Made by a program: the position numbers and the translations under genes. Of a stretch of DNA of 64,000 bases, positions 9,497-46,628 are shown piece by piece. Under the pieces are notes generated by a model. It worked only from the letters and a program-made list of their open reading frames with translations. It did not search any database and had not been told where the DNA came from. The DNA is from Synechococcus sp. MU1617 (GTDB taxonomy: Bacteria > Cyanobacteriota > Cyanobacteriia > PCC-6307 > Cyanobiaceae): positions 310,001-374,000 of the forward strand of contig NZ_VTLB01000001.1 of the NCBI RefSeq assembly GCF_020514235.1, in the 5' to 3' direction. The first letter of the stretch is position 1, and each line of letters starts with the position of its first letter.

Positions 9497-9501
9497 GGCG
9501 C

Positions 9502-10329: not shown

Positions 10330-10357
10330 TGATCAGATGAAGTGATTTTAATGAGGG

Positions 10358-23917: not shown

Positions 23918-24271
23918 ATGTTTAACCCCGAGTTTCTGACAACTGACAGCAGTGAGGGTCACGCGGGGAACAGCCTGATCCAGTACTTGCAGGAGCAGTC
24001 ACCAGACACCCTGCAGCGGGTCGCCAAATCAGCAAGCAACGATATTCAAGACATCATTCGCCACAACGTTCAGGGGCTGCTGGGAATGCTTCCCGGCGAG
24101 CACTTTGAGGTGAAGGTGACAGCCAACCGCGACAACCTCGCCAACATGCTTGCCTCGGCAATGATGACCGGCTATTTCCTGCGCCAGATGGAACAACGCA
24201 AGGAGCTCGAGGAAACCCTGTTCGCTGACGAACAGATGGCAATCGAGCCGGAAGACGAACTCAAGCTTTGA
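23918..24271 (+). CDS. DUF760 family protein
   Basis: A 117-residue acidic protein of the DUF760 family, conserved in cyanobacteria and plants. Typical stretches are NSLIQYLQEQSPDTLQRVAK, IIRHNVQGLLGMLPGEHF and NLANMLASAMMTGYFLRQME. Plant relatives are linked to chloroplast proteins of unclear role. Its 3' end overlaps the convergent DUF4336 gene by 11 bases. Confidence 0.85.
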   Translation: MFNPEFLTTDSSEGHAGNSLIQYLQEQSPDTLQRVAKSASNDIQDIIRHNVQGLLGMLPGEHFEVKVTANRDNLANMLASAMMTGYFLRQMEQRKELEETLFADEQMAIEPEDELKL

Positions 24272-25460
24272 TCACGGGCTGATCTGGCACGACGCCAAGA
24301 TCCAGCAAACGCTGATCGATAGATCCGAGAAACTCCCAGTTCTCTGAACTGGGCGCCCATTCCCGCTGTTGCAATGACTCGAGCAGTTGCTGCACGGTTT
24401 CTGGGGTAAATGTGACCGGCGCGCTGTAGTGAGCCGGCACCAGCCAGCGCAGCTCAGCCAGGCCGCTCAACGCTTGCAGCCAACGCAACAGAGCCTCCTG
24501 GGCCCTGGGCAACACCAACCGCTCAAGCACAGGGGCTACCTGCAACTTGGGCGCTTCTTCGCCGATCAAGCCATCGGCTGCAGCCTGCCAACCAGCCTTC
24601 CAGCGGAAGGGGTAGAGGCCGAAGTGGGCTTTCAGGGAACGAAGCCCGGGCTTGAACGCATCCCGCAGCAACTCCGGCAGCGCAGGCACCTCCAGCGGTT
24701 CCGGCCTCAGGTAGGAGGCAAATAGCACCAGCCGGGCCCAGCCGCGGCGGCGGGCTTCCGCTGAATCACTGAGGGGCTCATCGCCGCGTTCGCGGGCATG
24801 GAACAACAGCGGCGTTGGGTCGAGATCGAACAAAGCCGGGGGATCAGCACTGATGCCCACTAGGGCGTCGGTTACAAGCAGCGCGCCTGACGGGCGATGC
24901 AAACAGGAGACTTCCTGGAAGCGGCCCACGCCAAGGTCCAGCGGTCCTAGGGAGAACCACTCACAAACATCGCCGTGGGGGACGCCATCGTCGAACAACA
25001 CCTTGGTGCGACCTGCCGGAACGCCCAGCCAAGCCAGGGGCAACTGCACCGGGAAACTCCACTGGCCCGGACACACCCAGATGTCCGCATCCAGGAAGGC
25101 GCGTGCCAGGGGACCAAGGGGAAGCTTGTGCTCCAAACCAGAGGCGGTGGGCAGCACGATCGAGCGCACCGGACCGTGCTGTTGTTCCAGCTCGGAAATG
25201 GCTTGGCGAACCTCACCGGTGGGCGGCAGAGGGTTCACCAACATCAAGCCACCAGGAACCTTGGCCACGGTGAGCCGCACCGGCACGGCCACGTAATAGA
25301 CACCCTGCAGCTGCTCCAGGCTCCAGAGCTGACCAGGGATCAGCTCACTCAGCAGCGTGCGGCGACGGCCATAGGGATAAAGCGGCAGCAGCGGCCACCA
25401 AGGCCAGCGTTGGTCGGCTGGCGAGATGCCCTCAGTTGCACTCAGATCACTTGCCATCAC
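24261..25460 (-). CDS. DUF4336 domain-containing protein
   Basis: A 399-residue protein of the DUF4336 family, common in cyanobacteria and plants and distantly metallo-beta-lactamase-like. WPWWPLLPLYPYGRRRTLLSELIPGQLWSLEQLQG is the family N-terminal region in pieces, followed by VLPTASGLEHKLPLG and VCPGQWSFPVQLPL. No signal peptide. Its promoter region borders the proposed left end of the mobile element. Confidence 0.82.
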   Translation of the reverse strand: MMASDLSATEGISPADQRWPWWPLLPLYPYGRRRTLLSELIPGQLWSLEQLQGVYYVAVPVRLTVAKVPGGLMLVNPLPPTGEVRQAISELEQQHGPVRSIVLPTASGLEHKLPLGPLARAFLDADIWVCPGQWSFPVQLPLAWLGVPAGRTKVLFDDGVPHGDVCEWFSLGPLDLGVGRFQEVSCLHRPSGALLVTDALVGISADPPALFDLDPTPLLFHARERGDEPLSDSAEARRRGWARLVLFASYLRPEPLEVPALPELLRDAFKPGLRSLKAHFGLYPFRWKAGWQAAADGLIGEEAPKLQVAPVLERLVLPRAQEALLRWLQALSGLAELRWLVPAHYSAPVTFTPETVQQLLESLQQREWAPSSENWEFLGSIDQRLLDLGVVPDQPVIKA

Positions 25461-25487
25461 TCAAATTGACTGTTCCGTTGTTCCAGG

Positions 25488-25541
25488 TTGTGCAAGTGGG
25501 CATAACCTTGTGCAAGTGGTTTTAGGGACAAATTAGGGATA
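25488..25541. repeat. Left att-like repeat of mobile element
   Basis: TTGTGCAAGTGG occurs twice (25488-25499 and 25508-25519) with a 20-bp period, followed by AGGGACA (25524) and AGGGATA (25535) with an 11-bp period. The reverse complement of 25491-25518 matches the repeat at 33045-33072 at 21 of 28 positions by hand alignment. It lies 31 bases before the integrase start. Confidence 0.55.
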
Positions 25542-25571
25542 AAATAGGCAGACAAGCCGCCCTGTCCCTAG

Positions 25572-26795
25572 ATGACAGACACCACTGGGCAACGCCGAAA
25601 CAGCGCAAGGCTGAAGCAGCTCTCCCAGTATCTCCGGACCGTTCATTCAGAGCGGTATGGCCTATCTCTCAGGCGCAAAAGCAGACCTAACGGTCAGGAG
25701 CTGATCTACCTCTCGTTCAGGACGCGACCTGATGGGGGGGGAGATCAGAAGTGGCTGAAACTCAATGCGTCCTATGAGGACACAGACCTCGCTATTTCGC
25801 GTGCCATCGATCAGGCCTTAGCCGACTTCGACAGCAACGTCAAAAGGAATGCGGGTGGTCCTGTTGGTAGCTCACTTGGTGTCTATCAAAGACAGGCTTT
25901 AAGCCGCATCGAAACAGACGGGAACTCTGAGAAGCACGCTGCTCGTCGTGTGAAGTGGCTTAAGAGCTGCGTTCAGTGGCTCTCCGAAAACAACGGCAGG
26001 GCTACGAGCCGAGAGGATCTGCTGCGTTGGATCGCAAGTTGGCCAGCAGAAGCGAGAAGTCGTCGCGATGCCATCTCCTCTGCATGCCTGATCTTCGGGA
26101 TCGCGACAGATGGCAAGCAACTCAACCCAGGCAAAGAGTTTGCTTACCAAGAACCCCAGGCAGGGCAGGGACGACCGATTGATCCTGAAGAGGTACAGCG
26201 CGTCATCTTGAAACTCTGGGATCGAGCTGAAACCTCTGAGCTTGCTCATGCAGCCGCATGGCTGACGTCTTGGGTTGCTCTCACCGGTGCTCGTGGCGCG
26301 ATGGTGATGGCCTCACAACTGTTGTGGACTCCTCCAGGAAGGGTGGAAGTAGTCGTTGGGGGTTATGTGGAATGCCGTGATAGCAAAAGGGGTAGGAATC
26401 GGCAGGCACAACTCTGTCCTTCATGGAAAGAGCTTCTTGAAGCCGTTGGGATTGAAAAACTGAGCACTCCTCCGCAACGCCTCCGAGATGCCGCCAGTCC
26501 ATGGAATGAGAAACCCAACCAAGAACAACAGAGGAGAACAGAACAAGAGCTCAACGCCATTCATGGCTGGATCTGGCGAGAATTCTCAGAAGAGCGCGGA
26601 TTGAGAGCTGATCGCGATTTCATCGGGCTACGCACTCTTCGGCACAACGCTGCGCGACGACTGCTGGAGGTGAAACAGCTCGACCTTCTACAGATTGCAG
26701 GTCTTCTCTCAACATCTGAGGACATGCTCAGGAGGACGTATTCCGACCATCACCGCTTCCGCTCGAACGAGATCATCAGAGAGGTCTTCGGGTAG
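25572..26795 (+). CDS. Tyrosine recombinase / phage-type integrase
   Basis: A 407-residue site-specific recombinase. The N-terminal 170 residues form a SAM-like core-binding region (NGRATSREDLLRWIASWPAE). The catalytic domain has the first arginine in VALTGARGAMV, box II as RTLRHNAARRLLEVKQLD, and the nucleophile tyrosine in LRRTYSDHHRF. The first box II His is replaced by Arg in the TLRHN motif, and the usual LGH is LLSTSED, so it is a divergent member. The element it presumably mobilises extends downstream. It directly follows an att-like repeat. Confidence 0.85.
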   Translation: MTDTTGQRRNSARLKQLSQYLRTVHSERYGLSLRRKSRPNGQELIYLSFRTRPDGGGDQKWLKLNASYEDTDLAISRAIDQALADFDSNVKRNAGGPVGSSLGVYQRQALSRIETDGNSEKHAARRVKWLKSCVQWLSENNGRATSREDLLRWIASWPAEARSRRDAISSACLIFGIATDGKQLNPGKEFAYQEPQAGQGRPIDPEEVQRVILKLWDRAETSELAHAAAWLTSWVALTGARGAMVMASQLLWTPPGRVEVVVGGYVECRDSKRGRNRQAQLCPSWKELLEAVGIEKLSTPPQRLRDAASPWNEKPNQEQQRRTEQELNAIHGWIWREFSEERGLRADRDFIGLRTLRHNAARRLLEVKQLDLLQIAGLLSTSEDMLRRTYSDHHRFRSNEIIREVFG

Positions 26796-26817
26796 ATCTC
26801 TGAGTTCAATAAAGGCT

Positions 26818-27126
26818 ATGAAAGAAATCTCCAACGAAGATCTGAGAGTCATCCAGATTCCTGATCCTGAAAGTGGCAGTGATCGATGGATCCACTTCGC
26901 ACACACCATTAACGGCTACGAAGTTGACCCATTGATCAAGCAGACAGATCAACGCTCTTCTATTCACACTGCACGAACACTTACTGAACTTCGATGCGCC
27001 TTATTCCATCTCGCGAGAGCCGATCGATGGCAGGGAGCTACAGCGCCTGTGCCGGGCCTTGAGGAAGATGTTGAGACGCTCCTACGGAAGATTCGCGCAA
27101 AAGTTGCTGCGGGCGAACTGGAATAG
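26818..27126 (+). CDS. Hypothetical protein of mobile element
   Basis: A 102-residue protein starting at ATG 26818 with AAAGG just upstream, 22 bases after the integrase stop. It reads as a soluble, acidic, helix-rich protein (IPDPESGSDRWIHFAHTING, LRKIRAKVAAGELE). I recognise no family. Position implies co-transcription with the integrase. Confidence 0.6.
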   Translation: MKEISNEDLRVIQIPDPESGSDRWIHFAHTINGYEVDPLIKQTDQRSSIHTARTLTELRCALFHLARADRWQGATAPVPGLEEDVETLLRKIRAKVAAGELE

Positions 27127-27202
27127 AGGCTTGCCAAGCCACTTAAAAGACAGCAATCACTGTGGCAAGTCTCATTTTGTCCCTGAAATGGCACTCAGGC
27201 CG

Positions 27203-27403
27203 TCACAGACGCCCCAATGTCATCAGAACTGCTTCTTGATTCCAGAGGAATTCGCCGCGCGGTGACAACGGGTTGATCTTGCGGCGGTGAAGCCCATCCC
27301 GAAGAAGACCTGCCCTGAGCATGTTCCCAAGAGTGTTGCGATGCACCCCGAGACAAGAGGTCAACTCTCTTGTACGCATCCAAGTAATCGGAGTGTTCGA
27401 CAT
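27203..27403 (-). CDS. Small helix-turn-helix protein (excisionase/AlpA-like)
   Basis: A 66-residue protein with a winged-HTH pattern: TRELTSCLGVHRNTLGNMLR recognition region followed by SPRGEFLWNQEAVLMTL. Size, fold and position beside an integrase suggest a recombination directionality factor or regulator. ATG at 27403 is used; an in-frame TTG lies nine bases upstream. Opposite strand to the integrase. Confidence 0.65.
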   Translation of the reverse strand: MSNTPITWMRTRELTSCLGVHRNTLGNMLRAGLLRDGLHRRKINPLSPRGEFLWNQEAVLMTLGRL

Positions 27404-27541
27404 GTGAATCAACCATCTACTACAAACTACCCGTGTTGATCGAAGGAGCTGAAAGTGAAGCCATCAGCGAACTTAGTTGTGTCTTCTCACCTTTGCGGAT
27501 AATCGCCTGCAACTCAGGTGATATTCAGGATTCGCATCAGC

Positions 27542-28021
27542 TCAGTTGTCATTCAAAAGCTCAGATATTCCGAGCGCCGTTGCCTCGATGTTCATTGAAC
27601 CCTCTACTGCTTTGCAGATTGCGGCAATCACGGAAGGTAGCTCTCGTCCATGGAGGACAGTGCCGGCCTCGAGATGGTGCTTCAAGCTGCGCTCGACCAA
27701 GGCAAGCAGCTCGTCCGCTCGTTCTGCAACGGTTCGTGCTCTTGCGAGCTGTTCTTGTCTAAAGGTCTCGAGCTGTTCCTCATATCGCTCGAGCTCTGCT
27801 TCAGTTCGTGCTTCTGAGACTGTCTTCAGCTGCCCTGAGTCGTAGTCAGCTAGGCGCTCACTCCAGTTCCAATGATCCGCTCGTCGGCGAAGGGTTGACT
27901 CAGAGCAACCCACGACAACTGCTGTCTGCCTGAACTGACGAGCAGGTCCAAATTCCCGGTGCACAAGGAGCTGCTCGAAGGAATCTGCGGGCTCGCCGGG
28001 AAGCTGGGGAAAGGAGGTCAT
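27542..28021 (-). CDS. HTH protein resembling phage terminase small subunit
   Basis: A 159-residue protein. Residues 15-65 form an HTH-like region (VVGCSESTLRRRADHWNWSERLADYDS) of the type seen at the N-terminus of many phage TerS proteins, followed by a charged coiled coil (about 65-115, EAELERYEEQLETFRQEQLA) suited to oligomerisation. No large terminase, portal or capsid gene is in the element, so if this is TerS it would act on a helper phage's packaging machinery, as in phage satellites. A plain DNA-binding regulator is the alternative. Confidence 0.5.
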   Translation of the reverse strand: MTSFPQLPGEPADSFEQLLVHREFGPARQFRQTAVVVGCSESTLRRRADHWNWSERLADYDSGQLKTVSEARTEAELERYEEQLETFRQEQLARARTVAERADELLALVERSLKHHLEAGTVLHGRELPSVIAAICKAVEGSMNIEATALGISELLNDN

Positions 28022-28153
28022 CGTTAGCTGCTCTTTCCTTGAGGGTTCCAATAAGCGTCAGAGAGACCTAAACGGCTTCAACTACATCTCGATCTAAAAG
28101 CAAAGAGAAGCTCAAGTAACCCCCAGTAATTTGAAGAATCAGCTCTCTAGTCG

Positions 28154-31114
28154 TTGGTAAGCAAATCACGTCCTCACAACTCCTCTGATCGGCAAGGTGG
28201 TCATCAGAGACTTGGTAAGCCCGGATATGACTCTCAGAAAGTCCAGGCAGAAATCAGGCGAATTCCCGAATTTCTTGAAGCGATAGGCATTAAGGCATCG
28301 GAGGTATGTCTCACGCTCTATGGCGGAGATGGCGGCAACTGGCACTGGCAAAAGGTTGATGGTGCAACCCACTGCAGGCCTGTCGATATCAATCTGATCC
28401 AGGAACAAATTCTGGACTGGTCAATTGATGGATTCCATCGTCAGGGTCACCAACTCGGTTTTTACCCGATGTTTGGCGGCAGCACCAAGGCGCAGTCACA
28501 GGGCTCGCCGTGCCTCAAGGTTGAGTGCGACATGCTGCCAAAGGATCAGCAACTTGCAGTGCTGCGGGCCTTCGAGCACACCTACGACGTCCGCTTCACG
28601 ATCGTCGACACAGGAGGTAAATCGCTTCATGCCTATCTCTCAATAAATGAGGTCATCACCGTGGAGCGCTATCAGCTGGTGTGCCGGTGCTTCCACGAAC
28701 GGCTAGTAGATGTGGCTCGCATAGACGACATCCACTACAAGGCCGACGACGCCGTAAGCCGAATCACTCAAGCCATGCGGCTGCCTGGTGCAATTCATAA
28801 GAAGACCGGAGAAGTCGCCACAGTGCTGCAACTCGGCAAGCAATGCTCCCTCGAGCAGATCGAGTGTGGCCCTAAGGATGTCGATGACTTCCGAAAAGAG
28901 TCGACCACCCGGCGAGCAGTCGCTTGCACTTGCACCGCTGGCCGTGTCCTCGGTTACGAGGGCGACGAGGCCATGCAAATCCTCGCGACGATTGCTCAGG
29001 TCTGGGACAAGCGCATTCCAGGTGAGGCCACTTATCCGAAGGTTCTGCCACTGGTCGCCAATCTCACATCTGTTTTAGGAGCCGAACAAGCCGCCCAGCT
29101 CCTCTACGACCAAGGCCATTACGACAAGGTCGGTGAGCATGACCTCAAGGGCCTATTGGAGTGGTGCTCGTCGTTTGTAGAGCCAGTAAATCCAGCAGAT
29201 GCCACTGCGCGGCTCATCTCGATGGCCGCTACCAGGTACGGCTGGGAACGTCCCAGGGCCTCCACCTCAATCGTTGCTGACCCCGCTACAGAGCTCATCA
29301 ACAGTGAGGAGGAGCTACGGGCAACTCTCAAGGGACGATCGATCCTGACCAACTGCCGGACCGGGAAGGGCAAGTCAAAGCAAGCCCTCGGGGAGGCAGT
29401 CGACATGCACCGGGAAAGCCGCCAGCGGAATGGTGATCGCTCGAAGTTCTCTGTTGGCTGCATCAGCCCCCGTCGAACAATCAACGCACAGAACGCTCAG
29501 ATCACAGGTGGCCGCGACGTTTCCACAGGTCGCGGGTCTCTAGAGGACTTCTACATAGCCTGCCTCCAGTCTTGGGGTTTAGATCACAAGCGCCATGGCA
29601 ACGAGCTGCTCTGGCGCGACGGTGTCATGCCAGCAGCAGGGTTGTTGATCATCGACGAGCTCCGCCAGGTAATGGAGGCCGTGTTGTTAGGCAAGGCTGG
29701 GCCAGGGGAGTTCTGGGGGTCGCCTGGGGAGCGCGTTGAGACGTTCTGTCGGTTGGTCTGGACAATCCGCAACGCCGCCCAGGTCTACGGGATGGATGCT
29801 CAGCTAGGCGCACCTGAGATCGACTTCATAAACAGCGTCCGCGAGGTAAATAGGTCTCTGCCTGTGATCGGCAACCCAAGGGAAGAAAACGGCGGGGTGT
29901 TCCGCTGGACGAACAAGCAGAACATCTGGAGAGCAGCGCTACTGGAGACGATTCAGGACGCCGATAGAACAAAGCCTGTACTGGTTGTCACGGGCGCTAA
30001 GGGGGAGGAGAAAGACGACTCCACTAGGGGCATATCTGCCTGGGCACTTAAGCGTTTCATCGAAATCGAGACAGCCGAGGAGATCACTTCACCCCAGCTG
30101 GACCATCCGGTGACCTTCTCACGTTTGCATGTTGTCGTAATCGACAGCCTCAATAAAGACGAGACCGAGCAGCGGAAGATCCTGATGGAGAAAGACATGG
30201 GCATCGCGGACGTCGTCATTGTCACGCCCGTCGCTCAGTCGGGTTTCTCCTTTATCGGTGACTTCCATCAAGTCGGCTTCGTTGCTGGTGGCCTGACTCT
30301 GCCGCCAAACTGCGTCTCGCAAGGCGCGCGCAGAGAGCGGACCCTGGGGACTTGCTATGGCTACCTGCCTCGCACCGAGGTCGACCAGAGCTGTCCGTTC
30401 TTCACTTCAGATCCAGAGGAGAATGCCAAGGTCATCCATAAGGCGTTGCTCGAACATGACCGCGACATCAACACCCTTGGCCCGGTCGAGGAGCTGATGA
30501 TCGCTACATCACTCGCCTATTACGAGCGGTCGATCACAGAACTTGCGTTGTTCACTGACTATGCCTTGGCGTACTTACATCAAGACGGTTGGACCTTAGA
30601 AGCATTAGGCGATTTTGAGCACGGTCAGAGGGGACGTAAACGGGTCGCCAAAGTAGCCAATATTCTGGGAATGACACCCTTTGAGGAGCTGTCACCTGTC
30701 AAGCAGCTGATTCTTAAGGGTCTGATTGGTCTATTGAACGCGGAAGAAGTCGCAGCCATTGAACGCAAGGCAGTTGGCGGTGGCCTCGTTGATCTGGTCG
30801 GAGCCAACGCAGCCAAGGTCGTTGATCTCTTGCAGCGCTCAGGGTTAGTTCAGCTATGTGACGGGACGCCTAGACCCAAGAACGACCCCCAGATCGTTGC
30901 CTGTGGTCAGGTTCTGCAGTCACCAGAGGCAATAGAGCTGTTTAAGCGGTCCAGCACTCTCCAAGTTCGGGCCAGTCGCTCAAAGCACAAAGCAGCCAAC
31001 GCGGTAAAAGCCATTGGCGTCATCGTCAAACAGCTCGGTGGCCAATGGAAGCGCTGCGGAGACGGTCGGTCCAAGATTCTGGGGGAATTACCGCTACCTA
31101 AACAATGCCGTTAA
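28154..31114 (+). CDS. Large primase/helicase-like replication protein, CyRepA1-like
   Basis: A 986-residue protein. The N-terminal third (about 50-260) resembles an archaeo-eukaryotic primase-like region (LKVECDMLPKDQQL, VRFTIVDTGGKSLHAYLS, DDAVSRITQAMRLPGAIHK). A helicase core follows: Walker A-like NCRTGKGKSKQALGEAV near 395, Walker B LLIIDELRQVMEA near 497, and late motifs VTPVAQSGFSFIGDFHQVG and VSQGARRERTLG. This order recalls cyanobacterial plasmid replication proteins (CyRepA1) and virus-satellite primase-helicases. Start is TTG at 28154; no ATG is nearby. It ends at a strong terminator. Confidence 0.7.
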   Translation: MVSKSRPHNSSDRQGGHQRLGKPGYDSQKVQAEIRRIPEFLEAIGIKASEVCLTLYGGDGGNWHWQKVDGATHCRPVDINLIQEQILDWSIDGFHRQGHQLGFYPMFGGSTKAQSQGSPCLKVECDMLPKDQQLAVLRAFEHTYDVRFTIVDTGGKSLHAYLSINEVITVERYQLVCRCFHERLVDVARIDDIHYKADDAVSRITQAMRLPGAIHKKTGEVATVLQLGKQCSLEQIECGPKDVDDFRKESTTRRAVACTCTAGRVLGYEGDEAMQILATIAQVWDKRIPGEATYPKVLPLVANLTSVLGAEQAAQLLYDQGHYDKVGEHDLKGLLEWCSSFVEPVNPADATARLISMAATRYGWERPRASTSIVADPATELINSEEELRATLKGRSILTNCRTGKGKSKQALGEAVDMHRESRQRNGDRSKFSVGCISPRRTINAQNAQITGGRDVSTGRGSLEDFYIACLQSWGLDHKRHGNELLWRDGVMPAAGLLIIDELRQVMEAVLLGKAGPGEFWGSPGERVETFCRLVWTIRNAAQVYGMDAQLGAPEIDFINSVREVNRSLPVIGNPREENGGVFRWTNKQNIWRAALLETIQDADRTKPVLVVTGAKGEEKDDSTRGISAWALKRFIEIETAEEITSPQLDHPVTFSRLHVVVIDSLNKDETEQRKILMEKDMGIADVVIVTPVAQSGFSFIGDFHQVGFVAGGLTLPPNCVSQGARRERTLGTCYGYLPRTEVDQSCPFFTSDPEENAKVIHKALLEHDRDINTLGPVEELMIATSLAYYERSITELALFTDYALAYLHQDGWTLEALGDFEHGQRGRKRVAKVANILGMTPFEELSPVKQLILKGLIGLLNAEEVAAIERKAVGGGLVDLVGANAAKVVDLLQRSGLVQLCDGTPRPKNDPQIVACGQVLQSPEAIELFKRSSTLQVRASRSKHKAANAVKAIGVIVKQLGGQWKRCGDGRSKILGELPLPKQCR

Positions 31115-31156
31115 GGCAAAACGCTCTATAGAAGACTTGCCTTAAGCGCATTTTTT
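31111..31156 (+). terminator. Rho-independent terminator of the replication gene
   Basis: TTAAGGCAA (31111-31119, including the stop codon) pairs perfectly with TTGCCTTAA (31137-31145); a run of six T follows at 31151-31156. It closes the replication gene and separates it from the amine oxidase cargo. Confidence 0.7.
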
Positions 31157-31485
31157 GAGAGATCGACGTCACCTCACCAGGTACAGGTCCTGCATCACCG
31201 ACGATCAAGCACCGGCATCGCCACCATCCAAGGCAAAACCGTCACACCTAAAACAATCGCTTCTAACCCCAGGCTGCAGTTGCACACACTCCTACCCAGT
31301 TGCAATTAAACATTCTTAAGTGGCAGCACGACGCTTTTCACATCTAAGTATATATTTCAAATATCTCGGAAAAAGTTTTAAGGCAAAAATTATAAATTTG
31401 AGCCCTATTTACGTCATTACTAGAGATGATTGTGTAACTAGAAAATTTTGACAAGCCTATATTGAGATCCGGACTAGTTAGATGG
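31115..31485. other. Noncoding AT-rich spacer before amine oxidase
   Basis: About 370 bases without a supported gene. Beyond the terminator and the middle att-like repeat (31277-31304) it is visibly AT-rich. TTGACA occurs at 31448 but I see no well-spaced -10 partner. It is the promoter region for the amine oxidase gene. Confidence 0.6.
31277..31304. repeat. Middle att-like repeat
   Basis: Two CAGTTGCA boxes (31277 and 31297) with a 20-bp period. The 28 bases match 33045-33072 at 25 of 28 positions in the same orientation. About 18 bases later a stretch ending GTGGCAGCA resembles TTGGCAGCA after the right copy (near 33140). It lacks the AGGGNCA pair. The two direct copies bracket the amine oxidase gene. 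Confidence 0.6.
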
Positions 31486-32952
31486 ATGGCACTCTCCCGT
31501 CGTGAATTAATCACCAGTGCAGGCTTGGCAGGTCTTAGTGCCATCAGCCTTCAGCACAACAGCCAAGCCACATCGGTAAACAAGGATGTGGATGTGGTGG
31601 TCGTGGGCGCAGGCCTATCCGGACTTATTGCTGCGCGTGAACTCCGCAAAAAAGGCCTACGCGTTCTCATTCTTGAGGCAAGGGCAAGAACAGGTGGACG
31701 CATGATCCGACAAACCACCAAAACTGGTGCCGTGATTGACCTTGGAGGCCAATGGGGAGGGGCCACCCATCACCGCTTTGAATCCCTGGTCGATGAACTC
31801 AATATCAAGACTTTCCCCAGCTACTACGACGGAAAAGGAGTGCTGTTGTGGGATGGCAGCAGAGTCGAAGCCGACCTCGCCAAACATCCTTCCGACAGTG
31901 TTCTCCTCTTTGAAGGAGAACAGATTGGACAGCCAACGGACAAGATCACCAAGGCAAAGGCGGCGATGAAGTCGTTCCGTGCCATTGCAGCCTCCATAGA
32001 TCCTGCCCGCCCCTGGACTGCGCCCAATGCTGTGGAGCTTGACCGCACAACGATTCGCACCTGGTGCGATAAGAACAGCGAATCCCCCCTCAGCGATTTC
32101 GAACTGGAATGGCTCTCGGTCGTTGGTGGGTCAGGCGGCTTTGATCCATGGGACGCATCTATCCTTCACCTGGCTTGGACGCAAGCGGTAGCCCCACAGG
32201 ACGAGGGGCCGGAATCATGGCTGCTCAAAGGAGCCGCCGGCCAAGTGGCCGAACGACTGACGAACGAGTTGAAACCCTTCATTCGTCTGAACTCACCCGT
32301 CCATGGGATTGATCAGAACGAGGGGGGCGTGACAGTGCATTTCGGCGGTGGCCAACTGATTCAGGCGAAAAGCGCCATCGTCGCGATCCCGCCGCCATTA
32401 CGAAACAAGATCACCTTCACGCCGGACCTTCCCGCTGAGATGCGTTCATTCCTCCAGCGCAGTCCAATGGGTTCAATGATCAAGGTCTTCGCGATATATA
32501 AATCGGCCTTCTGGCGACGCCAGAATCTCAACGGGTTCGCCATAGGCAACCTGAAAACACTGGAAATCACCGCAGACAGCTCACTACCCAGCGGCACTCC
32601 CGGAATCCTCGCCTCCTTCGTTACCGCCAGTGCAGCTGTCGAATTCCAGCAGATGACAGCGGCCAATCAACACAAAGCTGTTCTGGACGATCTTGTGGCC
32701 TATTGGGGACCCGAAGCCGGATCACCCGAAGAACTGATCATTCAAAATTGGAACCAGGAGGCATGGTCCACCGGAGCCTTCACCAGCTTTGTGACACCAG
32801 GCACCTGGACGACCTACGGCCACCAATGGCAGGAATCTCACGACCGAGTGCATTGGGCCGGGACGGAAGCCTCGAGTCGGTGGCCCGGTTATTTCGAAGG
32901 GGCCATCGAGGCGGGTATTCAAGCGGCCAGGAAGGCCATGCTTCAAGCTTAG
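31486..32952 (+). CDS. Flavin monoamine oxidase family protein, Tat-exported
   Basis: A 488-residue FAD amine oxidase. The N-terminus has a twin-arginine motif (LSRRELITSAG) and a short hydrophobic stretch, indicating Tat export. The FAD dinucleotide fold is VVVVGAGLSGLIAARELRKKG, in parts, with EARARTGGRMI following; the C-terminal FAD motif is RVHWAGTEASSRWPGYFEGA. Family members oxidise polyamines, amino acids or aromatic amines, releasing ammonium and H2O2. ATG 31486 is preferred because it places the RR motif correctly. It lies between two att-like repeats, so it may be element cargo; it could supply nitrogen from amines. Confidence 0.88.
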   Translation: MALSRRELITSAGLAGLSAISLQHNSQATSVNKDVDVVVVGAGLSGLIAARELRKKGLRVLILEARARTGGRMIRQTTKTGAVIDLGGQWGGATHHRFESLVDELNIKTFPSYYDGKGVLLWDGSRVEADLAKHPSDSVLLFEGEQIGQPTDKITKAKAAMKSFRAIAASIDPARPWTAPNAVELDRTTIRTWCDKNSESPLSDFELEWLSVVGGSGGFDPWDASILHLAWTQAVAPQDEGPESWLLKGAAGQVAERLTNELKPFIRLNSPVHGIDQNEGGVTVHFGGGQLIQAKSAIVAIPPPLRNKITFTPDLPAEMRSFLQRSPMGSMIKVFAIYKSAFWRRQNLNGFAIGNLKTLEITADSSLPSGTPGILASFVTASAAVEFQQMTAANQHKAVLDDLVAYWGPEAGSPEELIIQNWNQEAWSTGAFTSFVTPGTWTTYGHQWQESHDRVHWAGTEASSRWPGYFEGAIEAGIQAARKAMLQA

Positions 32953-33044
32953 GTTTAGAGACATAGCAAATCATTTCAGGCATGCTCTGCTTGGAGAAGT
33001 AGGACGATTAGCCGCAATGTCAGATTCAAATCTCAGGCATCAAT

Positions 33045-33099
33045 CAGTTGCACACAATCCTGCCCAATTGCACAAAAAATCAGGGTCAACTCAGGGACA
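33045..33099. repeat. Right att-like repeat of mobile element
   Basis: CAGTTGCA (33045) and CAATTGCA (33065) with a 20-bp period, followed by AGGGTCA (33082) and AGGGACA (33093) with an 11-bp period. The box-pair plus AGGG-pair order and both spacings are the same as at the left end (25488-25541). Confidence 0.6.
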
Positions 33100-33239
33100 T
33101 ACCTCTTAAATCGACTGCTACCAAATACATTTAATTGGCAGCAGTGGCCACTAACCCCAGTGCTGGTCAGAAGGTTTTATTCCGCTTGCAGACAACCAAC
33201 TCCTCCGGCACAGATTCCTTAATTCTGTAGAAGCAACGA

Positions 33240-33761
33240 TCAAGTGAAGACCAAGCCGCCCACCACGGCACACAACAGCACCACTCTCCATGCTGGTTGC
33301 TTCCAGCAGACCAATAGCAGAAATGCAGTGATTGCAAGGCAGAACTCAGGGCGACCAAGAATCGCCGATTGCCAGATCGGTTGAAACAATGCGGCCACCA
33401 AAATGCCAACAACCGCTGCATTGATGCCGAAAAGAGCCCGACGCATCATGCGCAGACGACCGAGGGCACTCCAAAAAGGCAAAACGCCTCCGATCAACAA
33501 AAACGAGGGGAGGAAGAGAGCCGTTAAGGCCATCAAAGCGCCAGCGAGGCCATGAAGACCATCCTGCAGATCGAAACCAAGGAATGCCGCAAAGCTGAAC
33601 ATTGGACCTGGAACAGCTTGCGCCGCGCCATAGCCCACCAAAAACTGATCCAGTCCGATCCAACCCTGGGGGACAAGGGAGTGTTCCAGCAACGGCATCA
33701 CCACATGCCCACCGCCAAACACCAAGGCTCCCGTTCGCAGAAAGGCACTGAGCTGCTGCAT
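33240..33761 (-). CDS. Half-length chromate transporter ChrA (C-terminal domain only)
   Basis: A 173-residue membrane protein aligning with the C-terminal half of the full ChrA at 52108-53292. The shared opening QQLSGFLRTGALVFGGGHV corresponds to QQLSAFLRTGALVFGGGHV here, and GYGAAQAVPGPMFSFAAFLG is identical. The N-terminal CHR domain is missing: homology (RPLV) runs only a few codons upstream before an in-frame TGA. Natural half-size ChrA proteins function in pairs, but no partner is adjacent, so this is more likely a truncated duplicate. It lies just outside the mobile element's right end. Confidence 0.75.
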   Translation of the reverse strand: MQQLSAFLRTGALVFGGGHVVMPLLEHSLVPQGWIGLDQFLVGYGAAQAVPGPMFSFAAFLGFDLQDGLHGLAGALMALTALFLPSFLLIGGVLPFWSALGRLRMMRRALFGINAAVVGILVAALFQPIWQSAILGRPEFCLAITAFLLLVCWKQPAWRVVLLCAVVGGLVFT

Positions 33762-33864
33762 GACAAGCGGCCTATCCGCATCCGAACAGCACGGCCGCAG
33801 CGAAGCCAGAGAGTTGACCGCATCTCAAGGATGCCATCGGTTTGATCGGGTTGCTGAACTTCAC

Positions 33865-35034
33865 TCAGTTCTGGCTGCTGTCCTTGGAAGCATCCAGTGC
33901 GTTGCGCAACATCTGCGTGTTGCCTCTCAGGAGCACATCACCTTGACGAACACCCTGAAGGATTTCCGCTTGCCCCGCCGTTTGCTGGGCCACCACCACA
34001 GCAACCTGTTCCACAGCCCCCCGTTGATAGCGAAAGACCACCGGTGATCCATTGATCAGGGCAATGGAATCCTGCGGAACAATGAACCGTTGCTCGGAGG
34101 ATGGGATCTGCACAAAGGCCGTGATAGCTGTTCCGATCGGTGGGAGTTGAGCATCAATAGGTTGCGCGCGGAGCAGCATCACGCGCCCGGCGGTTTGCGC
34201 ATCAGGTGCCACAGCGATCACCCGTGCCTGCAGCGTCTGAGCTCCCGCTCGAACGCGCAGCAGCTGTCCGGTCCTGATGTTCGTGGCGAGTCCCGGTGAC
34301 ACGAGGAAGCGAAGCTCACCCCCTGTGACATCACTGATCTGGGCCACGTCTTCCCCCACAGACAGGACGGCACCGGGTGAGGTGCTCACAGCAGTGACCT
34401 GACCGGCAATTGGACTGCGAATCAACAGACGCCCTGAATCATCAGGCTTCCCTAGCGCTGAAGCCTTGGCAGCGGCTGCCCTGGCTGTCGTCGCGGCTGT
34501 AACGCTGGCGATGCGGCGGCTTTCCAGCTCCTGGGTCGAGAGTGCACCTTGCCGTGCCATGGGTTCGGCAAGGCGGTACAGGTATGCGAGCGAGTGCGCC
34601 GTGGCCTGCGCTGCATCGGCATCGGCGCGTACAGCAGCCGCATCAGCGCTTTGGACTTCTGCGATCGGTTCGCCAGCACGAACACGGGTGCCCGGTGACA
34701 CCATCAGACGTAAAACACGTCCCGCCACAGGCATCCCCACGCTTGAGCGCGACGATGTTGCTGCTTCAACAAAACCAGTGATCGGACGTTCCGTGCCCGA
34801 GCTCAGTTCGGGGCGAACAGTGGTCAATCCCAATCGCCGAAGCTGGTCTTCGCTGAGAGCCACGCTGCCATTGGCATCCGCACGGTCCATCGCCGCAACC
34901 GATGGCGCAGAGACCGGCCGGCTGCTCTGGCGACCCACACCGATTCCAACCAGCAGAGATGCGGAGATCGCCAGAGGAAGAAGCACGCCGGGTTGGCGCA
35001 GGTGATGCGTGAGGTGGTTAAGGCTCAGGTTCAT
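33865..35034 (-). CDS. RND efflux periplasmic adaptor (CusB/HlyD type)
   Basis: A 389-residue membrane-fusion protein with an N-terminal anchor (PGVLLPLAISASLLVGIGVG). It has a lipoyl-like hairpin domain (GRVLRLMVSPGTRVRAGEPI and LLIRSPIAGQVTAVSTSPG) split by a coiled-coil hairpin, then beta-barrel and membrane-proximal regions (RFIVPQDSIALINGSPVVF). ATG 35034 overlaps the pump stop codon (ATGA), fixing the start. It bridges the RND pump to an outer-membrane channel, which is not encoded here. Confidence 0.9.
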   Translation of the reverse strand: MNLSLNHLTHHLRQPGVLLPLAISASLLVGIGVGRQSSRPVSAPSVAAMDRADANGSVALSEDQLRRLGLTTVRPELSSGTERPITGFVEAATSSRSSVGMPVAGRVLRLMVSPGTRVRAGEPIAEVQSADAAAVRADADAAQATAHSLAYLYRLAEPMARQGALSTQELESRRIASVTAATTARAAAAKASALGKPDDSGRLLIRSPIAGQVTAVSTSPGAVLSVGEDVAQISDVTGGELRFLVSPGLATNIRTGQLLRVRAGAQTLQARVIAVAPDAQTAGRVMLLRAQPIDAQLPPIGTAITAFVQIPSSEQRFIVPQDSIALINGSPVVFRYQRGAVEQVAVVVAQQTAGQAEILQGVRQGDVLLRGNTQMLRNALDASKDSSQN

Positions 35035-38000
35035 GACGGGAGAGAGGCAAGAGACGACGCCGAACCGTCGCGGGCGGGCAGCAGCCAATGGCCAAAGCGT
35101 GCATAGAGCGCCGGGAGCACCAGCAGGGTCAGGGCCGTGGAGGTGGTCAATCCACCGAGCACCACCACAGCCAACGGTTGCAGGATTTCATTCCCGGCCC
35201 CGAAAGCGAGTGCAAGAGGCAAGGCTCCGAGTGCCGAGGAGAGGGCTGTCATCAGGATGGCGTTGAGGCGCTCCAGGCTTCCCTCACGGATCACCTCGCC
35301 CAGGGGTTGCCCTGCGCCGTGGCGGCGGTTGTAGTTGTCCACCAGCAACAACCCATTGCGCACGGCGATGCCAAACAGCGTGATGAAGCCGATCAACGAG
35401 GCGATCGATAGCACTCCTCCCGTGAGCAACACCGCCACCACACCTCCGATCAGGGCCAGGGGCAGGTTGAGCATGATCGCCACTGTGGCGGGCACTGATT
35501 TCACCGAAATCACCATCAGCACACCGATCACCACTGCGGCAACAGCGCTGTAGAAGACCAGAGACGCGGTTGCCCGTTCTTCTGATTCGAACTGGCCGCC
35601 GTAGCGGATCGTGTAGCCCTGAGGCAGTGGCACCTCACGGGCAATGGTGCGCTGGATGTCTTTGACGACAGTGCCGAGGGGCCGGCCGCTGACGTTGGTG
35701 GAGACCACGATCATGCGGGAAACATCTTCTCGGTTGACGATGTTGGCCCCCAGACCTTCCTCAACCCAGGCAACACTGCCGAGAGGAACGGTCATGCCAT
35801 TGCTGAAGGCCACCGGCAACGAGCGGATGGCCTCCAGGTTCTGGCGAGCATTCTCCTGAAGCTGCACGAGCACATCGCTGCGCACACCCCCTTCCACCAC
35901 GTGGCCCACCACCTTGCCGTTGAGCGCGATCTCCACTGCTTGCGACAGCTCCTCCACCGTGAGCCCCAGCGCCGCCGCAAGCGGGCGGTCGTAGTGGATC
36001 TGCACCTGGGGAATCGGCAGCTGCGGTTCCAACTGCAGATCCACCACTCCATCAATGGGTTTGATGGCCTTCTCCACCGCCTCACCGATGCGGCGCAGTT
36101 CGCCTAAATCGGTGCCGTAGATCTTGATTGCAATCGCGCTGCGCACCCCCGAGAGCACCTCATCCATGCGATGCGAGATGAAGCCGCCGATGTTGGGCGC
36201 CACACCGGGCAGCTTTAAAAAAGCCTGCCGCAGCTCGGCAATGGCAGCGGGCCGATTGGCCATGGCTTGATCGCTCAGTTCCACATCCACGTGAGCTAGG
36301 TTCACGCCGGCCCCATCGGCATCACCGGGGGCGCGGCCCGTGCGCACCTGCACCCATGCAAACAACGGGTTGTTCTGCAGCGAACGGGTCAGTGCAAGCC
36401 CCGCTCGGTTGGTCATCTCCAGTGACACCCCGGGGTAGAGCACCATCGAACTCACCAGCGATTGTTCGCGGAATTCCGGTAGAAACACCCGGCCCAGTGC
36501 CGGCAGGATCGTTGTGGTGGCGACGATCAGCGCCAGAGCGATGGCCAGCACGCGCTGCGGTGATCTCAGCGCTAGATCCAAGATTGGCCGGTAGAGCCGC
36601 TCAGCCCGGTTAGCCAGCCAGGTGTTCTCCTCTGGCAGCTCCGCAGGCGCAAGCAAGATGGCGCACAACGCGGGAGAGAGCGTTACCGCTACGAGGGTGG
36701 AGGCCGCGATCGACAGCAGGTAGGCCAGGCCCATCGGCGCAAAGATGCGCCCTTCTACGCCGGTGAGCGAAAAGATCGGCGCAAACACCACCACGATGAT
36801 CACGGTGGAGAACAGCACGGGCTGGCGCACCTCTACCGAGGTGTCGAACACCACCTGCAGGGGCGATTTGGGCGTGTCGCTGGCCCGGTTGCGGCGCAGC
36901 CCCCGATAGCAGTTCTCCATGTCGACGATCGAGTCGTCGACCACCGAACCGATCGCCACCACCAGCCCACCCAGGGTCATGGTGTTGATGCCCAGGCCCA
37001 GGCTCTTCATCAACATCAGGCCAATCAGCAGTGACAGCGGAATGGCGCTGAGGCTGATCACGGCGGCGCGCCAGTTCATGAGAAACAGCACGATCACCAC
37101 CGAAACGATCACCACCCCCTGGAGCAGCGACTCGCTCACATTGCGGATGGCACTATCGATGAAATTACTCTGACGAAATGTGGTCTGGACCTGCACATCG
37201 CTCGGCAGCGTGCGGTTCAGCTCGGCCAAGCGCTGCTCCACTGCCCGGGACACCGTGGGGGTGTCCACATCGGGCTGCTTGGTCACCATCAGCACCACAG
37301 CTGGCTTGCCGTTGAAGCTGGCGTCACCGCGTTTGAGCGCTGCACCGCGCTTCACTTCTCCCAGTGTTGAGAGCAGCACCGATCGTCCCTGCTCGCTCTT
37401 CACCGCCGCATCCGCCAGATCGCTCACCTGTGTGACCTGAGCCAAGGGGCGAATCAACCGCTCCTGGCCACCCCCGATCAGAAAGCCTCCAGGGCTGGTG
37501 GCCATCGCCGAGCCAACACCCTCCATCACCGCCTTGAGCGAGACAGCCTGAGCCTGCAGCTCCTGGGGATCAAGGAGCACCTGAAATTGCTGCTCATCGC
37601 CGCCGTAGATCGTCACCTGGGCGACGCCGGGCACCGCCAGGATCGACTGGCGATAGGAGCGCAACACCAGCTGCTGCAGATCCATCAGCGATGTGGCGCC
37701 ATCGCCGTTCACGGTGAAGGCGACCTGCAGGATTGTGCCCAGAGGCGACACCAGCGGGGAGAGCTCGGGGGGATCTGCATTGGTAGGCAGCTGGGCGCTC
37801 ACCTGTTGCAGCCGCTCCGCCACGGATTGGCGGGCGCGGTAGATGTCGGCGTTCTGGTTGAACACCACCTGCACCATCGACAAACCCGGCTTGGAGGAGG
37901 AGCGCACGGTCTCCACCCCGGCAATGCCATTCACTGCCGATTCGATCGGCAGCGTGATGCGGGTTTCCACTTCTTCCGGTGAGAGCCCAGCGGCGCTGGT

Positions 38001-38162
38001 TTGCACATCCACCTGCGGCGGCGCGAAGGGGGGAAACACATCCAGGGGCATCTGGCTCACCGCCAGCAGGCCCCAGAGGCTGATCACCACCGCGGCGGCA
38101 ACGATCAGCCAGCGGCGTGCGATCGAAAACCGCAGCGTTGTGTTGAGCAACCGCTCAAGCAT
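35031..38162 (-). CDS. Heavy-metal RND efflux pump (CusA/CzcA family)
   Basis: A 1043-residue inner-membrane proton antiporter with the 12-helix RND layout and duplicated periplasmic loops. It starts MLERLLNTTLRFSIARRWL, with TM1 near residue 20. TM4 keeps GGLVVAIGSVVDDSIVDMEN, the acidic proton-relay region of HME-type pumps. PGGFLIGGGQERLIRPLAQV and GARPxD-like loop follow. Substrate is probably Cu(I)/Ag(I) or another divalent metal given the neighbours. It overlaps both flanking genes (8 and 4 bases). Confidence 0.92.
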   Translation of the reverse strand: MLERLLNTTLRFSIARRWLIVAAAVVISLWGLLAVSQMPLDVFPPFAPPQVDVQTSAAGLSPEEVETRITLPIESAVNGIAGVETVRSSSKPGLSMVQVVFNQNADIYRARQSVAERLQQVSAQLPTNADPPELSPLVSPLGTILQVAFTVNGDGATSLMDLQQLVLRSYRQSILAVPGVAQVTIYGGDEQQFQVLLDPQELQAQAVSLKAVMEGVGSAMATSPGGFLIGGGQERLIRPLAQVTQVSDLADAAVKSEQGRSVLLSTLGEVKRGAALKRGDASFNGKPAVVLMVTKQPDVDTPTVSRAVEQRLAELNRTLPSDVQVQTTFRQSNFIDSAIRNVSESLLQGVVIVSVVIVLFLMNWRAAVISLSAIPLSLLIGLMLMKSLGLGINTMTLGGLVVAIGSVVDDSIVDMENCYRGLRRNRASDTPKSPLQVVFDTSVEVRQPVLFSTVIIVVVFAPIFSLTGVEGRIFAPMGLAYLLSIAASTLVAVTLSPALCAILLAPAELPEENTWLANRAERLYRPILDLALRSPQRVLAIALALIVATTTILPALGRVFLPEFREQSLVSSMVLYPGVSLEMTNRAGLALTRSLQNNPLFAWVQVRTGRAPGDADGAGVNLAHVDVELSDQAMANRPAAIAELRQAFLKLPGVAPNIGGFISHRMDEVLSGVRSAIAIKIYGTDLGELRRIGEAVEKAIKPIDGVVDLQLEPQLPIPQVQIHYDRPLAAALGLTVEELSQAVEIALNGKVVGHVVEGGVRSDVLVQLQENARQNLEAIRSLPVAFSNGMTVPLGSVAWVEEGLGANIVNREDVSRMIVVSTNVSGRPLGTVVKDIQRTIAREVPLPQGYTIRYGGQFESEERATASLVFYSAVAAVVIGVLMVISVKSVPATVAIMLNLPLALIGGVVAVLLTGGVLSIASLIGFITLFGIAVRNGLLLVDNYNRRHGAGQPLGEVIREGSLERLNAILMTALSSALGALPLALAFGAGNEILQPLAVVVLGGLTTSTALTLLVLPALYARFGHWLLPARDGSASSLASLPS

Positions 38163-38730
38163 CCGTCTTCCTGCGGCGGTTCAGCCAGATAGCCCCAGCG
38201 GTGAGTACGACAACCGCGCCAGCTGCCAGGGCGGGAATGGGTAGAGCGGACGGGCTCGCCGTCGCGCTGTCCTGTGGCGCAGCGGCTTTGTTATCTGCTG
38301 CCGGCTCAGCCTGTGGTGTCTTCTTCGATTCGGCGTACAGCGAGAGGGCGCCAGAGATCACCACCTCGTCGGTGGGATCAAGGCCCTCGGTGATCACAAC
38401 CCGGTCACCCTGTCTGGAACCCGTCACCACGAGAACAGGGTCGTAGGTGGTCTGGGTTTGCACGAACAGCAGTGGCTTGCCATTCGCATCGACTAGAGCA
38501 GTGGAGGGAACCGAGAGCCCATCCGGCCCGTCTTCCGGCGTTGCCGTGGCCACCCCCAACAGGGCATCGGTTTCGGCGTTGCGGCGCACCTGGCGTGCGT
38601 CGCCCTGCTGCTGAAACTCATCGCCATGGCCCACATGCGCCAGGGCCAGGGGCGTGGCGATGGGCGCTGCGAGTAAGGCTGTGGCAGCAAGGCTGGCGCT
38701 GGCCGCCAGCTGCAGGATTCGGGGAAGCAA
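38155..38730 (-). CDS. RND adaptor-like periplasmic protein with C-terminal anchor
   Basis: About 191 residues. The start is uncertain: a GTG at 38796 gives an odd Cys-rich leader lying over a likely regulator site, while TTG at 38730 starts a clean signal peptide (LAASASLAATALLAAPIAT). The mature part has LSVPSTALVDANGKPLLFVQ and GDRVVITEGLDPTDEVVISG, matching the membrane-proximal domain of RND adaptors. It then has a Pro/Ala linker and a C-terminal helix ending RRRK. The barrel-sandwich and hairpin domains are missing. It overlaps the pump gene by eight bases, so it is probably a pump accessory. Confidence 0.7.
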   Translation of the reverse strand: MLPRILQLAASASLAATALLAAPIATPLALAHVGHGDEFQQQGDARQVRRNAETDALLGVATATPEDGPDGLSVPSTALVDANGKPLLFVQTQTTYDPVLVVTGSRQGDRVVITEGLDPTDEVVISGALSLYAESKKTPQAEPAADNKAAAPQDSATASPSALPIPALAAGAVVVLTAGAIWLNRRRKTDA

Positions 38731-38774
38731 AGGCCTGGGGAAGCACTGGATAGGCGGAAGTTGGCACAACCGGG

Positions 38775-38790
38775 ATGAAAAACAGATGAA
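38775..38790. promoter_or_regulatory. Candidate CopR-like direct-repeat operator
   Basis: ATGAA occurs at 38775-38779 and 38786-38790 (TTCAT on the minus strand) with an 11-bp period, typical of OmpR-family regulator half-sites. As I recall, Synechocystis CopR binds TTCAT direct repeats. The site lies between the pump operon and the response regulator gene, in the short divergent region. Confidence 0.45.
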
Positions 38791-38838
38791 ATCCACTGCC
38801 CCTAACTAAGATCTGTGCCCTGTTGATCCGCCACGCCG

Positions 38839-39549
38839 ATGCCCATGCGGATCCTGTTGGTGGAGGACGAGATGGATCTAGCGCGATCCATCCAGGCAGT
38901 CCTGGAGGGCCAGGGCCATGTGGTGGATCACTGCGTCAGCGGTCAGGACGGCTGGGTGCTTCTGGGGAGTGATCAGGCCCACTACGACCTGGGAATTCTT
39001 GATTGGATGCTCCCGGAGCTCAGCGGCCTCGATCTGTGCAGGCGAACGCGATCGCGGGGCCTGGCGCTACCGCTCTTGCTGCTCACGGCCCGTAACGAAA
39101 CAGCCGACCGGGTTGAGGGCCTGGATGCCGGCGCGGACGACTATCTGAGCAAGCCCTTCGCGATGGAGGAGCTGCTCGCACGGGTACGGGCGTTGCAGCG
39201 GCGACAGCCCAGCTATCGGGCGCCGCTCCTGGAAGCCGGTTGCTTCCGGCTGGATCTCGCCGCGGGGCAGTTGCTCGTGGCAACAGCCGCAGCTGAGGTT
39301 TGCATTGAGCTCTCCACGAAAGAGCAGCAACTGATGAGCTATTTCCTGGAACACCCCGGTGAGGTGATTTCCGGCTCACGCTTGCGCAACCAACTGTGGA
39401 ATCTGCAGCAGGATCCCATCAGCAATGTTGTTGCCGCCCAGGTGCGATTGCTGCGGCGCAAGCTTGCTTCTCATGGGCTTGCTTCTCCGATTGAAACCAT
39501 ACCGAGTAAGGGGTATCGGCTGAACCCGCATGCTGCGGTGTTGCTGTGA
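38839..39549 (+). CDS. OmpR-family response regulator, CusR/CopR-like
   Basis: A 236-residue two-component regulator. The receiver domain (1-120) has RILLVEDEMDLARSIQ, the phosphorylatable Asp in LGILDWMLPELSG, and the switch Lys in YLSKPFAMEE. The C-terminal winged HTH (135-232) shows VISGSRLRNQLWNLQQDP and IETIPSKGYRLN. It overlaps the kinase gene by four bases and is divergent from the RND genes. That order recalls Synechocystis CopRS, so copper sensing is likely. Start could also be ATG 38845. Confidence 0.9.
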   Translation: MPMRILLVEDEMDLARSIQAVLEGQGHVVDHCVSGQDGWVLLGSDQAHYDLGILDWMLPELSGLDLCRRTRSRGLALPLLLLTARNETADRVEGLDAGADDYLSKPFAMEELLARVRALQRRQPSYRAPLLEAGCFRLDLAAGQLLVATAAAEVCIELSTKEQQLMSYFLEHPGEVISGSRLRNQLWNLQQDPISNVVAAQVRLLRRKLASHGLASPIETIPSKGYRLNPHAAVLL

Positions 39550-40877: not shown

Positions 40878-40925
40878 CTCTCCACCGACTGGAGTGTTTA
40901 CGGTGGAAGCAGTCGCCGTCCTCCT

Positions 40926-43571: not shown

Positions 43572-43595
43572 GCACTGCGCTGATCGCGCAACGCA

Positions 43596-43973: not shown

Positions 43974-43978
43974 GGGGA

Positions 43979-44011
43979 TTGACTCTCCTGTAAGGGGAGA
44001 CCAGACACTAT
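43979..44011 (+). promoter_or_regulatory. MerR-type promoter with operator dyad
   Basis: TTGACT (43979-43984) is a good -35 and CACTAT (44006-44011) or GACACT (44004-44009) a possible -10, giving a 19-21-bp spacer, longer than normal, as in MerR-activated promoters. A dyad CTCTCC/GGGGAG (43983-43988, 43994-43999; five of six pairs) lies within the spacer. It drives the DUF305 gene at 44020. Confidence 0.65.
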
Positions 44012-44019
44012 CTGGACTC

Positions 44020-45247: not shown

Positions 45248-45261
45248 CTCCTCATTCCCTG

Positions 45262-45284
45262 AAGCGGTCTCACTGAAACCGCTT
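45262..45284. terminator. Hairpin between convergent genes
   Basis: AAGCGGT (45262-45268) pairs with ACCGCTT (45278-45284). It lies at the junction of the copper operon and the convergent second DUF411 gene, overlapping that gene's stop. There is no clear T run, so termination is only suggested. Confidence 0.35.
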
Positions 45285-46294: not shown

Positions 46295-46299
46295 TGTGA

Positions 46300-46615: not shown

Positions 46616-46628
46616 ATAAGGTGTTTGG

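Follow-up and report, generated by a model that had tools for sequence, protein, structure and literature searches.

The integrative elements called tycheposons are reportedly the subject of Hackl et al. 2023 (Cell). PICIs, the packaging of which is directed by TerS, carry an integrase, a small regulator, a replication gene and TerS, and have neither a capsid nor a large terminase gene. Tyrosine recombinases act through catalytic R, K, R and Y residues, with histidines often present as well.

Several published systems resemble the Synechococcus locus described here, as far as the accessible parts of their descriptions go. Tycheposons are likewise integrative elements of picocyanobacteria that combine a tyrosine recombinase with cargo and shape genomic islands, and some have been proposed as satellites (PMC10872708, PMC11389934, PMC10803314). 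Cluster158946 integrases are also marine picocyanobacterial tyrosine recombinases; of the six lambda active-site residues, Arg, Lys, Arg and Tyr are named as conserved in them, and they are typically found upstream of tRNA-Phe or tRNA-Cys (PMC10187409). PICMI of Vibrionaceae are, like this locus, small elements with an integrase, AlpA (HTH_17) and a primase; their hallmark set is an integrase, AlpA, a DUF3987/DUF5906 primase and Fis, and the available portion of the source reports no terS homologue (PMC10803314). Integrons and CALINs share a tyrosine recombinase, head-to-tail cassettes ended by sites, and integrase-less arrays (PMC11389934). In additive flexible genomic islands, as here, cassettes come and go at a single locus through site-specific recombination (PMC5217437, PMC10872708).

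The locus lies in a 64,000-nucleotide stretch of DNA (the window) from Synechococcus sp. MU1617, the 2.32-Mb genome of which (G000) belongs to a marine Synechococcus-type genus. It is probably a phage satellite of TerS type, site-specific for the 5′ coding end of a DUF4336 gene, and the one unit with an integrase in the array of cassettes at that position; on this reading its integrase also built the array and perhaps shuffles it. An earlier note had described a locus of recombinase, HTH, TerS-like and large proteins, and the reading frames that it named lie at the places given, with the HTH and TerS-like frames on the minus strand. The features of the locus are as follows.

24261-25460, minus strand: DUF4336 gene, the integration target (Pfam DUF4336, E 4.1e-115); comparison of the 5′ end with element-free relatives marks the first ~15 codons as element-supplied
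25384-25415, plus strand: attL, the left attachment core; the same core stands at the DUF4336 5′ end of relatives
25491-25518, minus strand: P′ arm, an inverted arm site of two direct CACTTGCA repeats, +73 bp from the core
25572-26795, plus strand: INT, an atypical tyrosine recombinase of 407 aa with R241, K272, R357 and Y390 invariant in 12 homologues
26818-27126, plus strand: ORF102, a small protein with homologues near INT in G014, G021, G308 and G324
27203-27412, minus strand: XIS, an excisionase/AlpA-like HTH protein (HTH_17 E 0.004, excise E 0.047, both under curated cut-offs)
27542-28051, minus strand: TERS, a terminase small subunit homologue (phrog_6299, E 1.9e-12; PSS2 terS)
28154-31114, plus strand: REP, a replication protein, the helicase part distantly CyRepA1-like (NF042913, E 1.8e-11, aa 497-740)
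31277 to ~31332, plus strand: degenerate right-end site of the satellite, with intact arm, internal deletion and broken core (full length in the G308 copy)
31462-32952, plus strand: flavin amine oxidase, carried by a cassette of its own (PF01593, E 2.5e-70)
33045-33168, plus strand: intact arm+core site of attR type
33137-33240, minus strand: displaced earlier DUF4336 5′ end, reading ...KPSDQHWG*WPLL
33240-33761, minus strand: C-terminal part of a chromate transporter (PF02417)
33778-45917, no single strand: metal/copper efflux cassette (HlyD, RND pump, two-component system, multicopper oxidase, MerR, DUF305, DUF411), with a partial site, 45862-45917, at its end

Where the element is lacking, in the relatives G001, G005 and G009, DUF4336 directly adjoins the chromate transporter gene, and alignment with these sites places the start of the insert inside DUF4336 codons, at the core 25384-25415, while the older 5′ end of the gene persists at 33137-33240; the element thus provides DUF4336 with a new start. 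The bounds proposed in the earlier note (25572-31156) have to be moved on both sides: the true left end is the core within the DUF4336 gene, and the element's own right site is the degenerate one beginning at 31277. The next intact site is that at 33045-33168, and the interval up to it also takes in the amine oxidase gene, a segment that was counted with the satellite when the inter-site intervals were cut out, because its left site is degenerate. That earlier reading had overlooked the attachment site in DUF4336, along with the arm sites and the array of cassettes; the site-specific integration into DUF4336, the anatomy of arms and core, and the array are here read from direct sequence comparison. 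In G031 and G019, only ~0.35 kb separates the DUF4336 core from a backbone that others share. Beyond the metal cassette, 6.1 kb of DNA containing a sigma-70-type factor (45918-52055) seems to have split an array site: its arm is left at 45862-45917, and homology to relatives resumes at 52056.

No tRNA genes were found in the window or in L124, L082, L083 and L084. The target is a protein-coding gene, DUF4336, with a 124-bp arm+core site, and not a tRNA gene as in tycheposons; with its core in DUF4336 codons and no tRNA, the element is not a tycheposon in the strict sense. The satellite type suggested in the earlier note, PICI- or tycheposon-like, therefore stands for the PICI-like gene content and fails for the tycheposon-like part on the tRNA site. 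INT also has the Arg/Lys/Arg/Tyr pattern of cluster158946, a family compared here by its published description, and differs in location, since the accessible text puts those integrases by tRNA genes (PMC10187409); neither the window nor the nine scanned loci of distant INT homologues, some of which are short, yielded a tRNA.

The window INT gave no integrase-family match in Pfam, NCBIfam or PHROGs; PF00589 is matched by 2 of the 12 aligned INT homologues (best E 2.7e-5), the window protein not among them. The alignment comprises seven close members and five at 23–27% identity, and the catalytic R, K, R and Y of a tyrosine recombinase (R241 in TG.R, K272 in DSKR, R357 and Y390) are kept in 12/12. 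The atypical box II that the earlier note remarked upon is confirmed: R-x-L-R-H replaces H-x-L-R-H, invariant in all 12, so that the His position is Arg354. The best PDB similarity is to the integron integrase IntI4 (E 0.12, not significant), and the AlphaFold model, a single-sequence prediction, is poor (pLDDT 40.8). A profile search placed INT relatives in 17 of 400 family genomes, from five genera. Around distant INT homologues, no repeated ends were found in the four loci searched; at L157 (~8240-10761, reverse strand), a distant homologue comes directly after what looks, judged by eye, like the C-terminal portion of a further tyrosine recombinase.

The excisionase-like reading of the HTH protein is borne out by a weak excisionase/HTH_17 match (E 0.004–0.05); homologues occur near INT and/or TerS in G021, G032, G296, G308 and G020. 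The TerS-like frame was correctly positioned in the earlier note, except that the end given (28021) corresponds to an inner ATG of the full frame, 27542-28051. Homology of this 169-residue protein to terminase small subunits holds: phrog_6299 is matched by 8/8 members of the TERS alignment, and the terS of cyanophage PSS2 is 26% identical (E 3e-6); the single-sequence AlphaFold model is again poor (pLDDT 58.0). For REP, likeness to CyRepA1 is partial (PMC10899382): the match covers the helicase region, residues 497-740, at 43.7 bits, far under the curated cut-off of 200, and membership of the CyRepA1 family is accordingly rejected. REP has no Pfam match; a DUF3854 replication protein matches it at 27% over 194 aligned positions, and primase-like motifs in its N-terminal part were seen by eye. 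That note had named as contrary outcomes a large protein outside all replication families and a small protein matching regulators only; what was found is a CyRepA1 match for the one and a TerS match for the other.

TerS relatives occur, fragments included, in 24 of 400 family genomes (10/59 genera), and the replication and integration modules beside them vary between loci: a CyRepA1-like protein, a DUF3854 protein (in several loci with a 619-residue serine recombinase) or an AEP-like primase of 449 residues; at some TerS loci no module of these types was recognised. Retention of TerS while neighbouring modules change is the pattern expected of a satellite lineage. Another type of satellite, which combines TerS with a DUF3854 replication protein and a serine recombinase, was noticed in G000:C2 near 415053 (L038), G009 (L036) and G296:C2 (L125); its DUF3854 protein and serine recombinase are 100% identical in the three genomes, and G296 belongs to another genus than G000.

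As the earlier note had claimed, capsid and large-terminase genes are lacking: 0/5 element frames match such families in PHROGs. The putative satellite status of the locus is based on gene content and TerS homology. With an integrase, a regulator, a replication gene and TerS, the element has the gene content of a PICI, a likeness known here from the genes; its integrase and replication protein are unlike those of PICIs. Assignment to PICMI is rejected, since the Synechococcus element has a terS homologue, none of which was found in PICMI according to the accessible account (PMC10803314), and REP has no DUF3987/DUF5906 primase Pfam match. The virome search proposed in the earlier note came out negative: single-protein, alignment and short-pattern DNA scans of IMG/VR, of limited sensitivity, found no packaged copy or relative, and five exact 18-bp core matches all lacked the full site and any element protein. 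Neither a helper phage nor a packaged copy nor an excised circle was seen in the sequence data.

A near-identical copy of the element is present in G308, a complete, single-contig chromosome of another genus, g64. Window positions 25303-31304 align with it at 99.7% identity over 6,002 bp (17 mismatches, no gaps), and the INT, HTH, TERS and REP proteins are 100% identical, whereas the flanking DUF4336 and MenD proteins are 76% and 59% identical; an element at 99.7% beside a DUF4336 at only 76% argues that the gene set is more than chance. The metal cassette is also shared (10.1 kb at 98.8%), and satellite plus metal cassette is the sole neighbour pair that recurs between genomes (G000 and G308); the left junctions of the metal cassette differ between the two, and neither is at a site. 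The amine oxidase segment, 31305-33044, is absent from G308, which has a single intact site in its place, so that one cassette was gained or lost at site boundaries.

The core is 32 bp long, and the arm sites are paired direct CAnTTGCAC repeats. In the right-end module, which spans 124 bp, a direct pair of CAnTTGCAC repeats is followed by two AGGGACAA repeats and, last, by the core. Its consensus comes from 60 seed sites picked with fixed spacing, and the lack of gaps in it is thus by construction; with arm and core sought independently on 34 mapped contigs, the distance from start to start is exactly 92 bp in 56/61 pairs (91 in two others, and 81, 53 and 112). The exact arm motif, defined from the window itself, occurs three times there vs. 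0 in 40 simulated windows. In a pattern scan of 400 family genomes allowing up to three mismatches, 67 genomes matched, and the reversed control pattern gave one match; judged by eye, the true site motif is present in 38 of the 67 (86 rows, four genera), and the 29 left out look like GC-rich chance matches, so the reversed control understates chance. By our reading of these rows, an intact close INT is absent from 31 of the 38 genomes. A profile built from the seeds found 73 full sites (at least 50 bits) on 27/34 contigs, 19 contigs having two or more; in G144, 12 profile matches extend over 43 kb. Sites of mixed orientation were not found on the 34 mapped contigs, from which cassette order was taken; outside that set, G344:C1:1308866-1311842 has two identical array sites, inverted and 2.9 kb apart, the sole mixed orientation noticed.

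The P′ arm is more restricted. At a distance of exactly +73 bp beyond the core, it was seen with 2–4 mismatches in 7 of 100 scored sites, all of them DUF4336 cores beside INT (G000, G014, G032, G035, G296, G308, and G324), while the remaining 93 have at least 8 mismatches, the same as shuffles. In G021, core and inverted arm were seen by regex, the DUF4336 core having been missed by the profile; on the far side of G014 (L092, L159), a regex search found no right site. A complete lambda-like P-core-P′ thus appears only in integrase units, cassettes being P-core, for which lambda-like integration is not obvious. Folding of 6/6 sites was no better than that of shuffled DNA (z −0.80 to +1.38), so the sites are not attC-like.

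Head-to-tail copies of the 124-bp site recur upstream of DUF4336 in marine Synechococcus and bound cassettes that have no integrase. Among the 72 inter-site intervals cut out, 14 families of shared cassettes (at least 60% coverage both ways) have 34 members, one family lying within a single genome. Cassette 3 of G009 matches cassette 2 of G207 over its full length at 95.3%, in different genera; G302 no. 1 matches G308 no. 3 at 95.2%, and G007 no. 1, G029 no. 2 and G144 no. 1 match at 82–89%. Among the cargo proteins that were scanned are amine oxidase, fatty acid desaturase, type III polyketide synthase, FAD enzymes and DUF1254/1214 proteins, together with a metal efflux system; homologues of the window amine oxidase stand in the arrays of G010 (41%) and G207 (86%). 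Beside sister INTs, the G021 unit has type I restriction genes with PDC-S02, and G014, in which the right end of the unit was not located, has Hma-like genes. The company of INT at this site varies: in L034, L032 and L035 it stands with type I restriction genes, with Hma-like defence genes, or with large proteins that are mostly unrecognised, one having a weak tubulin-like match.

What follows the core also differs among sites. A common DUF4336 leader, conserved over ~70 bp and present in several copies per array, follows it at 50/99 positions (39/71 array positions and 11/28 DUF4336 starts); 14/99 leaders are of INT type and 35/99 are something else. The common leader occurs at all four sites of G009 and hence does not come from one displaced gene start; it seems to arrive with the cassettes. 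No INT adjoins seven of the 14 INT-type leaders (DUF4336 starts of G029, G314, and G362; array positions of G010, twice, G020, and G169), a sign that an INT unit was lost there.

In the proposed mechanism, INT would bind a lambda-like attP consisting of arm (P), core and inverted arm (P′) and recombine this attP with the core that lies within DUF4336 codons; the integrated element would give DUF4336 a new start, and the former 5′ end would stay behind at the opposite end of the element. Excision may be aided by the HTH protein, after which the CyRepA1-like protein would replicate the excised circle and TerS would redirect the packaging motor of a helper siphophage. INT may also recognise the arm+core site that ends the integrase-less cassettes and so move them in trans. 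Excision, replication, use of a helper, packaging and cassette movement in trans are steps that we infer.

How the array arose can be read in two ways, to neither of which we give even odds. A form of capture, integron-like yet distinct from integrons, is possible: a satellite-borne INT without the box II His would move integrase-less cassettes through the double-stranded 124-bp arm+core site at DUF4336, insertion would be harmless because each cassette brings a DUF4336 start, and satellites would spread a library of metabolic, metal-resistance and defence genes between genera. Movement in trans is favoured by the core being the starting point of shared cassettes and by the common leader, which is not of INT type. 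It is likewise conceivable, at a similar tentative level, that complete INT elements inserted serially at the DUF4336 core and decayed, losing INT and P′, and that homologous recombination spread the remains; the satellite would then be the newest arrival, and INT would not act in trans. Such accretion fits the constant position of INT, which when intact and close is directly upstream of DUF4336 in 8/8 genomes having one, and the INT-type footprints, that is, INT-type leaders without INT at three DUF4336 starts and four array positions; INT remnants in G023, G099 and G140, the different cargo of sister INTs, and the additive islands with repeated tRNA ends described in the available text (PMC10872708) point the same way. 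It accords less well with shared cassettes that begin at the core, with P′ in 0/93 scored non-INT sites, and with the array leaders, only four of which are INT-type against 39/71 of the other conserved kind, so that most cassettes do not resemble INT units that lost INT.

That the locus is an integrated CyRepA1-type plasmid, with the TerS homologue in another DNA-binding role, seems unlikely. REP does match a plasmid replication family, homologues of which are common on cyanobacterial chromosomes according to the accessible text (PMC10899382), but no PLSDB record matched REP or INT at the limits used, which weakens the idea; TerS is retained across elements that differ in their replication module, and in a Pfam scan 0/7 reading frames matched partition or relaxase families. 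We also think it improbable that the window copy is a dead remnant, no longer mobile: the internal deletion and broken core of its right site would suit this, whereas all genes are intact and identical to those of G308, and the intact site at 33045-33168, 1.8 kb further on, could serve excision together with the amine oxidase cassette.

The satellite reading, with its array, can be set beside the cassette systems already described. The sites differ from those of integrons in not folding like attC, INT is not clearly close to IntI, and the recombinase is inside the mobile unit; an integron is rejected by the absence of an NCBIfam match for INT, the IntI4 E value of 0.12 and the failure of 6/6 sites to fold in attC fashion. 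Repeated end fragments of additive islands are tRNA-Lys in the portion of the source available (PMC10872708), in contrast to the coding-gene core, conserved arms and identified recombinase found here. A literature search without most subscription papers, Hackl et al. 2023 included, found no description of the cassette array.

In the accessible text of Dufresne et al., 2008 (PMC2441476), the genomic islands of marine Synechococcus are described as places where transferred genes are stored. For one such island, the site, arms, recombinase and cassette boundaries can now be named to the base, which makes excision, insertion and transfer directly testable. The locus also suggests what some chromosomal CyRepA-like proteins may do, the function of which needs validation according to the available account (PMC10899382), and a possible role for a TerS family found beside changing replication modules. 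A satellite at the head of a row of cassettes may explain how metabolic and defence genes are exchanged in marine Synechococcus.
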